64,000 nucleotides of DNA from the NCBI GenBank assembly GCA_017535785.1, contig JAFXTN010000027.1, forward strand, positions 1 to 64,000. Reading direction: 5' to 3'. Made by a program: the position numbers and the translations under genes. Shown piece after piece: positions 49,926-55,912 of the stretch (position 1 is its first letter; every line of letters begins with the position of its first letter). The stretch comes from Butyrivibrio sp. (GTDB lineage Bacteria; Bacillota; Clostridia; Lachnospirales; Lachnospiraceae). The notes beneath the pieces are model-generated. The model did no database searches. It saw nothing but the letters and a program-made list of their open reading frames with translations, and was not told the origin of the DNA.

Positions 49926-52361
49926 TTATTTCTTCTTAGTATTAGACCTTTTATTTGCGCGAGGCTTCTTGGAAATGCTCTTTATCGCTTCTTTTGAAAC
50001 AATGTTAAAGATGCGCTCTTCCTCGATCTTCGCATACTTTTCTTCTATAGCCTTTTCCTCATTGGCAAGTTCCTCTTCATACTTCTTCTTAAGTTCAGCA
50101 AGCAGCCTCTGTTCTTCTTCACTCTGCTTCTCCTTAAGAGCCGAAAGCTTTTCGTTTCTCTCTTTTTCCTTCTTGAGCTCCTCTTCTTCCTTGATGGATC
50201 TAATCTTCTTCTCCTGCTGCGTATAAGGAGTAAACGAGAAGATCGCAAGCGATACGGGCGCAAGCTTTATATTTACAGAGTAGTCTCTGCCGTCCGCCTC
50301 TTTTCTCTTGGCTTCGATCTTGCCTTCGTTAAGGAGGCCCGATCCGCCGTAGCTCACATCATCGCTGTTAAAGATCTCATTGTATCTTCCGTCCGTGATG
50401 ACTCCGATATCATATTCTCTCTCGATTCCCGCCATATTGGCTACGACCAGAAGTATCTCTTTCTCATCGGCACTCTTTCGGACAAAAGAGATCATGCAGT
50501 CATCCGCAGCCATATTATTTATCCACTCAAAGCCGCCCTCAACACTGTCGAGCTGATGAAGAGCATCATGTTCTCTGTAAAGAGAATTGAGCTTTGAAAG
50601 CATATTTTCAACAAATACGGACTGATCAACCGTAAGCGCATCCGGTTCCATGTAGATGTGCTTCCTTCCGGGATGCACCATCATAAAGCTAAGCGCAAGC
50701 CTTAGATTCGCCATCTTCTGATTGGAATCGCCGGGCATAAGATAATACAGGCCTTCAAGACCTTTTTCCAGTTCCTCATGCGTAAAGCTCAAAACAAATC
50801 GCTCAGTATAGCTGTAGATTATGCTAAACGTAAGCTCATCGTGATGTCCCGATCTAAAAAGAGGATCGTTTTGCATATAAGACAGGAAATCTCTGGTCCA
50901 TCCGTTATTCCATTTATAATCAAATCCAAGTCCGCCGTCATCTATGCTGTCAGTGACCTGAGGCCAGCACGCAGTCTCTTTTGTGATCATAAACACGCCG
51001 GGATCTGCCTTGTGAACACTGCTCGTAAGCTGCTTAAGAAACTCGAGCGCTTCAAGGTTCTCATTTCCGCCATAGATGTTCGGCATCCACTCGCCGGGCT
51101 TTCTGTCGTAGTCAAGGTAAAGGATCCTGGAGATATCAGAGATCCTAAGGCCGTCGACATGATAGATCTCTATCCAGAAAAGAGCATTCGATACAAGGAA
51201 GTTCGTGACCTCTTTTCTTCCGTAATCAAAGATGAGATCACCTGACTTGGGATGTATACCTACCCTTGGATCTTCATATTCATATAAGGTCTTTCCGTCA
51301 AAATCGCTCAGTCCGCAAGAAGCCTTGGGAAAGAATGTCGGAACCCAGTCAAGAATGACTCTGATACCGTTCTCATGCATAGTATTTACAAAGCCCATGA
51401 ACTCCTCAGGCTTTCCGTTCGCATCATCAAGCGCAAAGAAATCAAGGATATGATAAAAATGCTCGGGAATATGCTTCATTACAGGCATAAGTTCAACCGT
51501 GTCAAAGCCATGATCTTTTACATAGCTTAAGATATCCTGAGTGATCTCTTCGATAGTAGTCTTATACTCGTGCCTCTCTGCAAACGCGTCAAGTGAAAGC
51601 TCGCAGATAGAAAGAGCTCCCTCATCCTTATCAAACTTCCTTCTCTCGGCGATCCATTTTTCATCAGTCCATTTAAATGGCGCAAACTTATTTATAACGG
51701 ATATAACTCCGTTTTCGCCCTTGGACTTTGTTGCGTATGGATCGGGTCTTTTATAGATATGACCGCTTCTTGTCTTAACTTCAAACTGATAGCCGTCATC
51801 TACCTTAGCACCGGGAACAAATATCTCGAAGATCCCGATGGGATCAAGTCTGTGCATCTGGCACATCCTGCCGTCCCAATTATTGAAATCTCCTATAACG
51901 CTGACTCTGGCAGCAGAAGGAGCCCATACCGCGAACTGCGTGCCGGCAACGCCACCACGCTTCATGGGATGAGCTCCTAATTTTTCATAGATACGGTAAT
52001 GTATACCGCTTCCGAACTTTATAAAATCCTCTCGGTCCATCTTAGGTCCGAAGGAATATGGATCGATTACAGTTTCTTCATTATCGTTTTCATCTGTGAT
52101 AATGAATTTGTATCTCAATTTGTCGACATAAGGAACGATAGCTGCAAAAAAGCCGGCTTCATCCGCAAGTTCCATCTCATAAGCCTTCTTGTTATTCTCA
52201 ACAAGAACACTTACAGATTTGGCATTCGGATAAAAAGCCTGAACAAGATAGTTCGACCCAACCTTGTGTGCTCCGAGGATTCTGTGTGGATCGTCTCCAT
52301 CAGAATAAATGATCTCCTCAATCTCCGGCCAGTTCATCATCTTGTACAGTCTGTTATTCAC
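49926..52361 (-). CDS. GlgB-family protein with a replaced active site (predicted pseudoenzyme)
   Basis: The protein has 811 residues from the GTG at 52361 with GGAGGGG upstream; no ATG fits as well. Two N-terminal CBM48-type domains (about 10-110 and 125-215) and a GH13 barrel align well with glycogen branching enzyme (MPGDSNQKMANLR, GEWMPNIYGGNENLEALEFL). Catalytic residues are lost: region I His to Phe343, nucleophile Asp to Ser408 (DGLRISDIS), acid/base Glu to Lys461 (MITKETACWP), third Asp to Glu529 (FTHEE), and MGNEF is replaced. The GYQPTGLYAP loop is shortened. A Lys/Glu coiled-coil tail (about 713-811) is added. It probably binds glucan without branching it. It is last in the serC-serA-DUF1015 operon. 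Confidence 0.85.
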   Translation of the reverse strand: MNNRLYKMMNWPEIEEIIYSDGDDPHRILGAHKVGSNYLVQAFYPNAKSVSVLVENNKKAYEMELADEAGFFAAIVPYVDKLRYKFIITDENDNEETVIDPYSFGPKMDREDFIKFGSGIHYRIYEKLGAHPMKRGGVAGTQFAVWAPSAARVSVIGDFNNWDGRMCQMHRLDPIGIFEIFVPGAKVDDGYQFEVKTRSGHIYKRPDPYATKSKGENGVISVINKFAPFKWTDEKWIAERRKFDKDEGALSICELSLDAFAERHEYKTTIEEITQDILSYVKDHGFDTVELMPVMKHIPEHFYHILDFFALDDANGKPEEFMGFVNTMHENGIRVILDWVPTFFPKASCGLSDFDGKTLYEYEDPRVGIHPKSGDLIFDYGRKEVTNFLVSNALFWIEIYHVDGLRISDISRILYLDYDRKPGEWMPNIYGGNENLEALEFLKQLTSSVHKADPGVFMITKETACWPQVTDSIDDGGLGFDYKWNNGWTRDFLSYMQNDPLFRSGHHDELTFSIIYSYTERFVLSFTHEELEKGLEGLYYLMPGDSNQKMANLRLALSFMMVHPGRKHIYMEPDALTVDQSVFVENMLSKLNSLYREHDALHQLDSVEGGFEWINNMAADDCMISFVRKSADEKEILLVVANMAGIEREYDIGVITDGRYNEIFNSDDVSYGGSGLLNEGKIEAKRKEADGRDYSVNIKLAPVSLAIFSFTPYTQQEKKIRSIKEEEELKKEKERNEKLSALKEKQSEEEQRLLAELKKKYEEELANEEKAIEEKYAKIEEERIFNIVSKEAIKSISKKPRANKRSNTKKK

Positions 52362-52401
52362 TATTGTCCCCTCCAAATAAAAAACAATACTTAAATTGTT
52401 G

Positions 52402-53658
52402 TTATTTAGATAATTGTACCATTAATTTCGTGAATAAATATCCACTTAAGAGTTTAGGCTCGAACCAAGTCGACTTCGGAGGCATAAGCCTCTTCTCATC
52501 TGCAACGGCAAAAAGCTCTGAAATAGATGTAGGATACATAGAAAAAGCAAGCTTCATATCTGCATGACATCTGTCTTCAAGTTCTTTGAGCCCTCTGATA
52601 CCGCCAACAAAATCGATTCTCTTATCCGTTCTCGGATCACCGATTCCAAGGATAGGAGAAAGAACTTCATTCTGAAGAACGGAAACATCAAGTCCGTCAA
52701 CCGCATCGCTCTTTAATATATCAGAATGAGCAGTAAGTCTGAACCATTCATCATCGATGAAAAGTCCGAATTCTGCTTTCTTTGCAGGCTTTACAGCCTC
52801 ATTTTCTTTTACGATATCAAACTTCTCTTTGAGCTTTTCAAAGAACTCCTCCTTGGAAAGGCCGTTAAGATCCTTAACTACACGGTTGTAGTCCATGATC
52901 ATAAGCTCATTGTCAGGGAAAAGAACTGAGAGGAAGTAGTCATACTCCTGCTTACCGCGAACCTTTCCTTCATTCTCTTCTCTTTTCTTAAGTCCGACCT
53001 TTACCGCAGATGCGCATCTGTGATGTCCGTCAGCAATATATACGGCATCGATAGTTGCAAAAATACGGCTGATAGTATCAGTCTCTTCCTTGTCATCGAT
53101 TATCCAAACTCTGGACTTTACATCATCTGCCGATACAAAATCGTAAACAGGTTCATCAACCTCTTTTACCTTGCTGATAAGATCTGAGAGCATCTTGTTC
53201 TCTCTGTAGCAAAGGAAAATAGGTCCTGTCTGAGCTTCACATGTATATACATGCTTGATCCTGTCCTCTTCCTTGTCGGCTCTTGTATTTTCGTGCTTCT
53301 TGATAACACCGTTTAAATAGTCATCAATCGAAGCGCAGGCAACTATTCCGGTCTGTGTTCTTCCGTTCATTGTCTGCTCATAGATGTAATAGCACTTTTC
53401 CTCATCCTGCACGAAAACACCACTCTCCATCTGCTCATGGAGCATGTCATGTGCCTTCTGATAAACTTCGGGAGCGTACATATCCTGGTCTTCAGGGAAC
53501 TGTGTCTCCGGTCTGTCTATAGCAAGAAATGATCCGGGATTCTCTTTTACGTACTCAAGAGCCTCTTTTCTGCTAAAAACATCATAGGGAAGAGCCGCAA
53601 CTCTTCCCACTTTTTCTTTTGTCGGTCTGTATGCCTTAAAAGGTCTGATATCCGCCAT
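52402..53658 (-). CDS. DUF1015 family protein
   Basis: The protein has 418 residues, the normal length for the family. The N-terminal signature RPFKAYRPTKEKVGRVAALP and PYDVFSRKEA, central KKHENTRADKEEDR and the ADGHHRCASA motif are all present. Function is not established. ADGHHR recalls the DGxxR motif of ParB/Srx-fold proteins, a superfamily that includes free-serine kinases, and the gene lies 2 nt after serA, so a role in serine metabolism is plausible but inferred. No phosphoserine phosphatase gene is in this operon. Confidence 0.85.
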   Translation of the reverse strand: MADIRPFKAYRPTKEKVGRVAALPYDVFSRKEALEYVKENPGSFLAIDRPETQFPEDQDMYAPEVYQKAHDMLHEQMESGVFVQDEEKCYYIYEQTMNGRTQTGIVACASIDDYLNGVIKKHENTRADKEEDRIKHVYTCEAQTGPIFLCYRENKMLSDLISKVKEVDEPVYDFVSADDVKSRVWIIDDKEETDTISRIFATIDAVYIADGHHRCASAVKVGLKKREENEGKVRGKQEYDYFLSVLFPDNELMIMDYNRVVKDLNGLSKEEFFEKLKEKFDIVKENEAVKPAKKAEFGLFIDDEWFRLTAHSDILKSDAVDGLDVSVLQNEVLSPILGIGDPRTDKRIDFVGGIRGLKELEDRCHADMKLAFSMYPTSISELFAVADEKRLMPPKSTWFEPKLLSGYLFTKLMVQLSK

Positions 53659-53660
53659 AA

Positions 53661-54830
53661 TTATGCTTCTTTCTTTACAACTCTGACTCTGATAACACCG
53701 TCAACTTTAGTAAGCTTCTTAACAAGATCATCAGTGATCTTATCCTCAAGATCAATAAGTGTATATGCATAATCTCCCTTAGACTTGTTAGTCATATCGG
53801 AGATGTTGTAGCCTGCATCACCGAGCGCAGTTGTGAACTGGCTGATCATGTTGGCAACATTCTTATGGAAAATTCCGATTCTGGGACGTGTGCAGATGCC
53901 CATGTCGCAGTTAGGATAGTTAACCGAATTATTGATATTACCGTTCTCAAGATAATCCTTAAGCTCAAGAACTGCCTTAACAGCGCAGTTATCCTCAGAC
54001 TCCTCTGTTGAAGCACCAAGGTGAGGGATAACGATACATCCATCGTGACCTGATGTTGTAGGGTTCGGGAAGTCTGTTACATACTTACGGATCTTGCCTG
54101 AGTTGATGCCTGCAAGAACATCAACTTCGTTGCAAAGGATATCTCTTGCAAGGTTGATGATGATAACACCCTTTTTCATCTTAGCGATAGCTTCAGCATT
54201 GATCATGCCCTTTGTAGAATCAAGAGCAGGAACGTGAACTGTGATGATATCGCACTTTGAATAAATATCATCAACGTTTGTAACGTGCTTAACGTCTGAA
54301 GAAAGTCTCCAAGCAGCATCGATAGAAAGATAAGGATCATATCCGTAAACATCCATACCAAGCTGTCTTGCAGCATTAGCTACTCTTACACCGATAGCTC
54401 CAAGACCGATGATACCAAGCTTCTTACCGAAGATCTCAGTTCCGGCGAATTTCTTTTTGGATTTCTCTGTGAGCTTAGCAATATCAGGATCGCCTGCATT
54501 AGCCTTAACCCACTCTGTTCCGCCGATGATGTCTCTTGATGCGATGAGCATAGCAGCAAGAACCATCTCCTTAACGCCGTTAGCGTTGGCACCGGGTGTG
54601 TTAAATACAACGATACCCTGCTCAGCACACTTATCAAGAGGAATATTGTTAACACCGGCACCAGCTCTTGCGATCGCAAGAAGGTTGTCGGAAAACTCCA
54701 TCTCAAGCATATTGGCACTTCTTACGAGGATACCTTCTGCATCATCAACATTATCAACTACCTGATACTCATCAGTGAAATTATTAAGACCGATCTTAGC
54801 AATCGGGTTCATGCATTTATACTTGTACAT
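53661..54830 (-). CDS. serA: D-3-phosphoglycerate dehydrogenase
   Basis: The protein has 389 residues. The NAD-binding motif is GIIGLGAIGVRVANAA, catalytic residues are in INLARDILCNEVDV (Arg) and VIPHLGASTEESEDN (His with Glu). A C-terminal ACT domain (about 318-389) may bind serine. It makes 3-phosphohydroxypyruvate, the first step of serine synthesis. Its ATG overlaps the serC stop (TAATG), with AAGGAG upstream. Confidence 0.96.
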   Translation of the reverse strand: MYKYKCMNPIAKIGLNNFTDEYQVVDNVDDAEGILVRSANMLEMEFSDNLLAIARAGAGVNNIPLDKCAEQGIVVFNTPGANANGVKEMVLAAMLIASRDIIGGTEWVKANAGDPDIAKLTEKSKKKFAGTEIFGKKLGIIGLGAIGVRVANAARQLGMDVYGYDPYLSIDAAWRLSSDVKHVTNVDDIYSKCDIITVHVPALDSTKGMINAEAIAKMKKGVIIINLARDILCNEVDVLAGINSGKIRKYVTDFPNPTTSGHDGCIVIPHLGASTEESEDNCAVKAVLELKDYLENGNINNSVNYPNCDMGICTRPRIGIFHKNVANMISQFTTALGDAGYNISDMTNKSKGDYAYTLIDLEDKITDDLVKKLTKVDGVIRVRVVKKEA

Positions 54831-55912
54831 TATGAATTCTCCTTCTCAAACTTAGCCATGAATTCTACGAGCTTCTGAACGCCCTCGATAGGCATTGCGT
54901 TGTAGATACTTGCTCTCATACCGCCAACAGTTCTGTGTCCCTTAAGGCTTACAAAGCCGGCAGCTGTTGCTTCCTTGATGAACTTAGCATTGAGCTCTTC
55001 GCTGTCTGTTACGAAAGGAACGTTCATAAGTGATCTGTCCTCAGGTCTTACTGTGCCCTTGAACATCTTGCTCTGATCGAGATAATCATAAAGAACCTTA
55101 GCCTTAGCCTCGTTTCTCTTCTTCATCTCCTCAAGTCCGCCCTGCTTCTTGAGCCACTTGAACACAAGACCGCACATGTAGATGCTCCAGCAGTTAGGTG
55201 TGTTGTAAAGTGAACCGTTGTCTGCCTGAGTCTTCCACTTGAGCATTGTAGGTGTGTATGCGGGAACATCATCAGTGATGAGATCTTCTCTGATGATAGC
55301 GATAACAAGACCTGCAGGTCCTACGTTCTTCTGAACACCACCGTAGATAACGCCGTACTTTGTTACATCAACGGGCTCTGAAAGGAAGCATGATGAAACG
55401 TCAGAAACAAGGATATGTCCCTTAGTATTGGGAAGAGTCTTGAACTTTGTTCCGTAAATTGTGTTATTCTCGCAGATGTAAACATAGTCAGCATCTTCGG
55501 GAATATCAAGATCTGAGCAATCAGGAATATATGAGAAAGTCTTATCAGCACTTGAAGCAACCTCAACAGCCTCTCCGTACTTCTGAGCCTCCTGATATGC
55601 CTTCTTAGCCCACTGTCCTGTTACGATATATGCAGCCTTGCCGTTCTTCATAAGGTTAAGAGGAACAGCTGCGAACTGCTGGCTTGCGCCACCCTGTAAA
55701 AAGAGAACCTTGTAGTTGTCAGGAATATTCATAAGATCTCTGATATCCTGCTCGGCAGTCTGGATAACCTCATCAAAGGTTTTGGATCTGTGGCTCATCT
55801 CGTTGATAGACATTCCACATCCGTTGTAATCAAGCATCTCTGCAGCAGCCTGCTTCAATACTTCCTCGGGTAACACTGCCGGTCCGGCAGAAAAATTATA
55901 AACTCGTGACAC
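54830..55912 (-). CDS. serC: Phosphoserine aminotransferase
   Basis: The protein has 360 residues. The start is GTG with AGGAGG upstream and the N-terminus VYNFSAGPAVLPEEVLKQAA is diagnostic. The PLP lysine lies in YGGVQKNVGPAGLVI; RTVGGMRASIYNAM is the C-terminal signature. It converts phosphohydroxypyruvate to phosphoserine. It is first in the serC-serA-DUF1015-GlgB-like operon, behind a sigma-A promoter. Confidence 0.97.
   Translation of the reverse strand: MSRVYNFSAGPAVLPEEVLKQAAAEMLDYNGCGMSINEMSHRSKTFDEVIQTAEQDIRDLMNIPDNYKVLFLQGGASQQFAAVPLNLMKNGKAAYIVTGQWAKKAYQEAQKYGEAVEVASSADKTFSYIPDCSDLDIPEDADYVYICENNTIYGTKFKTLPNTKGHILVSDVSSCFLSEPVDVTKYGVIYGGVQKNVGPAGLVIAIIREDLITDDVPAYTPTMLKWKTQADNGSLYNTPNCWSIYMCGLVFKWLKKQGGLEEMKKRNEAKAKVLYDYLDQSKMFKGTVRPEDRSLMNVPFVTDSEELNAKFIKEATAAGFVSLKGHRTVGGMRASIYNAMPIEGVQKLVEFMAKFEKENS

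Follow-up and report, generated by a model that had tools for sequence, protein, structure and literature searches.

A long GlgB of Butyrivibrio has lost the catalytic residues of a glycogen branching enzyme, yet the protein has been kept by selection. The gene lies in a window of 64,000 nucleotides, which is the whole stretch of DNA that was analysed. From sequence comparison and from analogy with inactive paralogues of other systems, we put at about 0.5 the probability that its product, hereafter the dead GlgB, is a non-catalytic partner in glycogen storage, glucan-binding and docked to a partner, which was retained after an ancestral loss of branching. A dead active site, selection on the protein, constraint at its ends, an intact paralogue and a glycogen-storing cell together fit such a role. 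The gene and the parts of its product are located as follows.

49926..52361, minus strand: dead long GlgB of 811 aa with a GTG start, comprising GlgB_N, CBM48, GH13 barrel, C domain and C-terminal helix
52257..52361, minus strand: residues 1-35, the most constrained segment of the dead family in the pairwise identity comparison
52056..52331, minus strand: GlgB_N domain, residues 11-102 (Pfam PF22019)
51732..51983, minus strand: CBM48, residues 127-210, which contains W162, the equivalent of E. coli site IV W159 (Pfam PF02922)
51333..51335, minus strand: F343 in place of the region I His, E. coli H340 (alignment to E. coli GlgB)
51138..51140, minus strand: S408 in place of the nucleophile Asp, E. 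coli D405 (same alignment)
50979..50981, minus strand: K461 in place of the acid/base Glu, E. coli E458 (same alignment)
50775..50777, minus strand: E529 in place of the third Asp, E. coli D526 (same alignment)
49998..50219, minus strand: residues 715-788, one continuous predicted helix, Glu/Lys-rich and strongly constrained in the dead family (pLDDT of the modelled blocks drops from 73 to 31)
49929..49997, minus strand: residues 789-811, a basic Lys-rich tail (sequence)

The GTG start at 52361 is preceded closely on its 5' side by GGAGGGG, the ribosome-binding site of the dead glgB. Pfam domain positions, whose numbering is shifted by 5 against the 816-aa ORF, gave an all-beta C domain and only a partial match to the alpha-amylase barrel (residues 282-346 of the 816-aa ORF). 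The protein scored above the cut-offs of the NCBIfam GlgB models TIGR01515 (602.6 bits against 463.95) and NF008967 (622.1 against 577) and below that of NF003811 (654.4 against 741). Descent and fold make it a GlgB, but it lacks the residues that define a branching enzyme.

The original prediction had all three catalytic positions changed and the region I His replaced by Phe, and the alignment to E. coli GlgB agreed at every residue: S408, K461 and E529 stand exactly where a GH13 GlgB has its catalytic Asp, Glu and Asp, and F343 aligns with H340. We take H340 of the E. coli enzyme to be the region I His and D405, E458 and D526 to be its catalytic residues. Neither this His nor the substrate loops (SWGYQ and MG.EFGQ..EW..LDW) are found in canonical form, and the loop loss that had been foreseen could be resolved into a shortened and altered GYQ region at residue 298 and a deletion, at residue 574, of the loop after MG.EF (E..W..LDW). 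The further claim of high similarity outside the active site stood in part. Canonical rows have 167 columns with an invariance of 95% or more. Of these, 75 are retained by 90% or more of the 39 dead rows, and another 59 have been lost by the majority of them.

Canonical GlgBs carry H, D, E and D at the positions of 343, 408, 461 and 529 in 97/97 rows, two of which are duplicates. In the 58 long genes of the genus, position 343 is F in 48, Y in 5, T in 4 and S in 1, never H; position 408 is S in 36, A in 10, P in 8 and T in 4, never D; position 461 is K in 52 and R in 6, never E; and position 529 is E in 53 and D in 5. GH13 chemistry requires the Asp and the Glu, and since both are lost here, the sequence makes branching activity of the dead GlgB very unlikely. 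That the altered pocket (R406, D409, K/R461, E462 and E/D529) catalyses another reaction instead appears distinctly improbable. R406, D409 and E462 are indeed invariant in all 58 genes and 461 is always basic, as a new chemistry might demand, but R406 and E462 are also found in active GlgBs, position 408 varies freely, H528 is replaced by S, N or K in four of the 58 genes, the substrate loops are shortened or deleted, and a barrel-stabilising salt bridge from K461 to D409 or E529 would account for the pattern. One subclade of the dead genes (L074-L079) has R for K at 461, and in four of its six members H528 is S, N or K.

The loss extends over the genus. A scan of 99 relatives detected the long dead gene in 57 of the 60 same-genus genomes; the three genomes without it (G003, G007 and G023) are 60, 72 and 72% complete. 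Read at the level of residues, all 58 genes of the genus (57 relatives and the window's own) are dead, and their products range from 797 to 866 residues. In a scan of named genomes, which overlaps with the same-genus set, the best 80 of 390 confirmed loci comprised 68 dead genes, titled Butyrivibrio or, in nine cases, Lachnospiraceae bacterium, and 12 canonical genes from Kineothrix alysoides, Acetatifactor, Eisenbergiella, Lachnospiraceae, one Clostridiales bacterium and one uncultured bacterium. No dead relative was found outside the genus among 57 rows (25 from the order, 12 named and 20 from the family, the last 32 including two duplicates); the family sample represents 20 of 131 matching other-genus family genomes, drawn from among the highest-ranked matches. 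A search at the DNA level for the motif TKE[TS][AST]CWP, which is blind to the K-to-R subclade and to independent losses, gave hits in 2 of 397 family genomes, both Butyrivibrio. Orthologues with intact catalytic residues had been named beforehand as evidence that would speak against a pseudoenzyme, and positional orthologues of this kind do technically occur in other genera; they date the loss and do not refute it.

All 39 dead rows formed one clade with support of 1.0 within the long GlgBs of the family (FastTree, 138 rows); the stem of this clade is 0.58 substitutions per site long. The crown of the dead clade is 0.69 deep and that of the short Butyrivibrio GlgB 0.32, which suggests, from row sets that differ, that the dead gene evolves about twice as fast. 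The tree is most simply explained if catalysis was lost once, in the ancestor of Butyrivibrio, and the gene was retained afterwards. Ten genome pairs, the same for both genes and not independent of one another, gave dN/dS values of 0.026-0.046 (dead gene) and 0.019-0.079 (active paralogue) by the Nei-Gojobori method, in frames that include some codons 5' of the start. In several pairs dS is above 1 and hence unreliable; restricted to the four pairs whose dead-gene dS is below 0.8, dN/dS was 0.027-0.040. These values indicate that the dead GlgB is maintained by strong purifying selection across the genus, and the concern that the substitutions might be a strain-specific decay was dispelled by 58 dead genes of 58 with low dN/dS. 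The chance that the gene is a decaying pseudogene, or an artefact of sequencing or assembly, was accordingly judged negligible. The protein does evolve faster than the active paralogue, its barrel is relaxed, and stops were flagged inside the match in some rows of the genus (e.g. G047, G057 and G019). The flagged stops lie at match ends, because the frame, expected to be intact in the window, is open from the N-terminal start motif to the ORF end in all 58 genes; with the dN/dS range, retention throughout the genus and presence in species whose copies are about 50% identical, this ruled the explanation out.

The original prediction also held that the fold appears to be kept. An AlphaFold model built on 23 dead-family sequences returned the GlgB fold (mean pLDDT 78.9, pTM 0.79), with a single helix at residues 715-788, and the predicted structure matched those of GlgB. 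All of the best 50 Foldseek matches listed were branching enzymes; 3k1d gave a TM score of 0.88 by target length and 0.79 by query length, and the matches with the best E-values (Cyanothece) superposed as a whole with TM 0.70-0.75 and an rmsd near 15.8. pLDDT fell below 50 at residues 11-20, 348-364, 419-432 and 780-811, and confidence was low over residues 1-20 and beyond 770, so that neither end is well modelled. The C-terminal helix is at most a candidate coiled coil.

Twelve oligosaccharide sites of E. coli GlgB are described in passages of PMC10254366. W628 of site VI is kept in 39/39 dead rows, W159 of site IV in 33/39, the other six having an aromatic residue or His, and Y275 of site X in 32/39. 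W586 of site I and F294 of site XII, present in 97/97 and 71/97 canonical rows, are deleted in all 39 dead rows, and W544 of site V is kept in none of them and in 24/97 canonical rows. Sites II, III, IX and X (W278), found in 0/97 canonical rows, and site VII, found in 1/97, are uninformative for this reason. The pattern allows glucan binding by the dead GlgB; active GlgBs show little or no variation at the retained tryptophans either, whose role may be structural.

The distribution of constraint along the protein differs between dead and active forms. Entropy was higher in dead than in active family rows for the barrel (1.25 vs 0.72) and CBM48 (0.96 vs 0.70), and lower for residues 1-15 (0.26 vs 0.60), GlgB_N (1.12 vs 1.47), the C domain (1.19 vs 1.34) and the C-terminal helix (1.06 vs 2.18, the largest shift). 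When 102 dead pairs were set against 46 active pairs of equal core identity (60-65%), identity was 92% in dead vs 66% in active pairs over residues 1-35, 51% vs 38% over the rest of GlgB_N, 60% vs 67% in the barrel, 60% vs 46% in the C domain and 60% vs 20% in the C-terminal helix, where the gapped alignment of active rows lowers their figure. Even dead pairs that are 45-50% identical over residues 126-712 averaged 90% identity over residues 1-35. Relative to active relatives, the comparison thus indicates that the barrel has become less constrained and residues 1-35 and the C-terminal helix more so, and that the shift also takes in the rest of GlgB_N and the C domain, beyond the two ends. Conservation of the first 35 codons as a nucleic-acid element was considered and rejected, as identical codons are used at matching residues with a frequency of 0.41 there and 0.44-0.51 elsewhere in the gene; synonymous sites in this segment are unconserved, and selection therefore acts on the protein.

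A Lys-rich C-tail (8 or more Lys among the final 30 residues) occurs in 34/39 dead rows and in 15/21 active short Butyrivibrio rows (L002 and L232-L251), and in none of 19 short GlgBs of other genera, several of which are Lys-rich at the N-terminus. As a signal of a shared partner the tail was given little weight, as 19/32 intact long family GlgBs have it too.

A second intact glgB, which the original prediction had advised looking for, was found in the same genome at C23:135608-137527 (L002). This paralogue is short, without the N-terminal domain, and its catalytic residues, as read from the sequence, are those of an active-type enzyme. The short GlgB is present in at least 58 of the 60 same-genus genomes (G010 and G023, 76 and 72% complete, have none listed) and is canonical in all 25 read in the genus (21 aligned rows and L106-L109). 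Short-type GlgBs are widespread in the family, with matches in 183/200 genomes at E up to 1e-200, a threshold that also admits long ones. The glycogen gene set of the genome is complete, with one GlgA over the cut-off, GlgC adjoining GlgD, two GlgP and one intact GlgB. For B. proteoclasticus B316, glycogen-like inclusions and carbohydrate at 11% of dry mass are recorded in part of the text of PMC2914790. The passages seen of papers on the B316 cytosolic proteome, co-culture expression, comparative genomics and the B. fibrisolvens proteome contain neither 'branching' nor 'glgB'.

Upstream of the dead glgB lie the following features, of which the serine genes had been flagged as an unexplained linkage.

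52362..52401, minus strand: short spacer that separates DUF1015 from the dead glgB and contains an AT-rich hairpin by the ribosome-binding site (folding z -2.9)
52402..53658, minus strand: DUF1015 protein, the upstream neighbour, inherited from the family locus
53661..54830, minus strand: serA-like dehydrogenase (PGDH profile 251 bits, under the cut-off of 454)
54830..55912, minus strand: serC phosphoserine transaminase (profile match)

A 91-base stretch with the hairpin folds better than shuffles of it (2/200 as good), and neither a consensus promoter nor a consensus terminator was found in the 52362-52401 gap. Further neighbours are presumably ilvB, ykuD, apt and relA, labels given by reading the sequences.

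The linkage to serC-serA-DUF1015 is real, but it is inherited, since the family locus holds intact glgB as well. In the intact-glgB family rows (32, of which 30 are distinct), DUF1015 is directly upstream in 27, usually behind serC-serA, and an mscS-like gene is directly downstream, within 600 bases, in 30; at the order level such neighbours occur in 1/25 rows. From these rows, the serC-serA-DUF1015 operon is evidently the family's usual place for the long glgB. A role in serine metabolism deduced from the operon is weakened, as other genera have an intact glgB at the same locus. The DUF1015 protein lies behind serC-serA in many of the genomes, and no paper in the literature covered has both 'DUF1015' and 'serine'. 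The long glgB and the mscS-like gene form a conserved pair in the family rows L179-L211 and in the deep Butyrivibrio loci L057-L072; the mscS-like proteins match NCBIfam MscS models at scores below the cut-offs.

These neighbours do not point to glycogen, which counts against a glycogen role, as do the deletion of sites I and XII, the less constrained barrel and the faster evolution of the dead clade. It is conceivable, if unlikely, that the protein was repurposed away from glycogen as a structural or signalling protein acting through its N-terminal segment and C-terminal helix, for instance in mscS-related turgor or in serine metabolism. Besides the shift of constraint off the barrel, this would suit the position of mscS: 37 of the 49 Butyrivibrio loci with flanks (L032-L080) have DUF1015 upstream, all of the other 12, which lie away from the serine genes, have mscS directly downstream of glgB, and in L058, L064 and L067 the two ORFs share one base. 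The sequences allow a possible glycogen-turgor link in this pairing. The mscS link, however, occurs with intact glgB too and cannot explain the catalytic loss, the window's own genome retains the dead gene without a close relative of this mscS (best match 29% identity), and the site of W628 is kept and that of W159 mostly kept.

Under the preferred reading, a partner role in glycogen storage, the long GlgB at the serC-serA-DUF1015-glgB-mscS locus would have lost branching in the Butyrivibrio ancestor while the short GlgB carried it on, and the dead protein would have been retained as a non-catalytic partner. Surface sites on CBM48 and the C-terminal domain would hold alpha-glucan chains, and the N-terminal segment and long C-terminal helix would dock the protein to itself, to the active GlgB or to a different enzyme of glycogen metabolism. 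In this way it may influence where branches are placed, how the particle is assembled or which enzymes are recruited, in the manner of ISA2 towards ISA1 and of GlgD towards GlgC. Glucan binding, partner binding and the effect on glycogen are what we infer here.

The closest relative is the canonical long GlgB of Lachnospiraceae (e.g. Kineothrix alysoides L180), which usually occupies the same locus and has the same domain order, a long C-terminal extension, in most cases the LYK.MNW N-terminal motif, and about 42-48% identity to the dead GlgB in the rows read. It differs in that every row read (32 from the family, 25 from the order) has the catalytic residues, and in the weak conservation of its C-terminal extension. 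Plant ISA2 is a non-catalytic GH13 paralogue beside an active one that acts via a complex, with glucan-binding sites proposed to matter (PMC12510319, in part). The likeness lies in a non-catalytic GH13 paralogue kept next to an active one, but ISA2 is of the debranching lineage, belongs to plants and has its complex shown, whereas the dead GlgB is known here from its sequence. GlgD of Firmicutes is an inactive paralogue that modulates its active partner GlgC, according to passages of PMC9093745. It shares with the dead GlgB the state of an inactive paralogue, the pathway and the phylum, and it adjoins GlgC in this genome, but it is another enzyme of another fold, with an established hetero-oligomer. 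In chlamydial GlgA-GlgB fusions, the branching-enzyme domain is reported inactive in the sections seen of PMC11046441, where a table also marks one inactive isoform in some archaea; the fusion is a product of gene rearrangement in a defective pathway, unlike the dead GlgB, a separate conserved gene in a complete one. No other precedent for a dead bacterial GlgB was found in the portions of the open-licence literature covered. A more specific and tentative version, drawn from these analogies, is that the protein is the first counterpart of ISA2 among bacterial branching enzymes, a dead subunit devoted to organising the glycogen particle or active GlgB through its N-terminal docking segment and long C-terminal helix, and fixed in the genus ancestor once a second GlgB held the active function.

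In the part of PMC5716241 seen, the only paper found with both 'Butyrivibrio' and 'glgB2', B. hungatei MB2003 has a CBM48-containing glgB2 (bhn_I1458, 824 aa) beside a 663-aa glgB1, and glgB2 is listed as a 1,4-alpha-glucan branching enzyme. By size and domain content, it is probably the counterpart of the dead gene. The dead GlgB passes NCBIfam GlgB models, and its probable counterpart is annotated as a second branching enzyme in a genome paper. Neighbouring genera, which have intact orthologues at this locus, offer a natural before-and-after comparison. If the dead GlgB is a non-catalytic subunit, counts of branching capacity would be wrong throughout a major genus of the rumen, and a regulator of the ISA2/GlgD type would be added to the architecture of bacterial glycogen.
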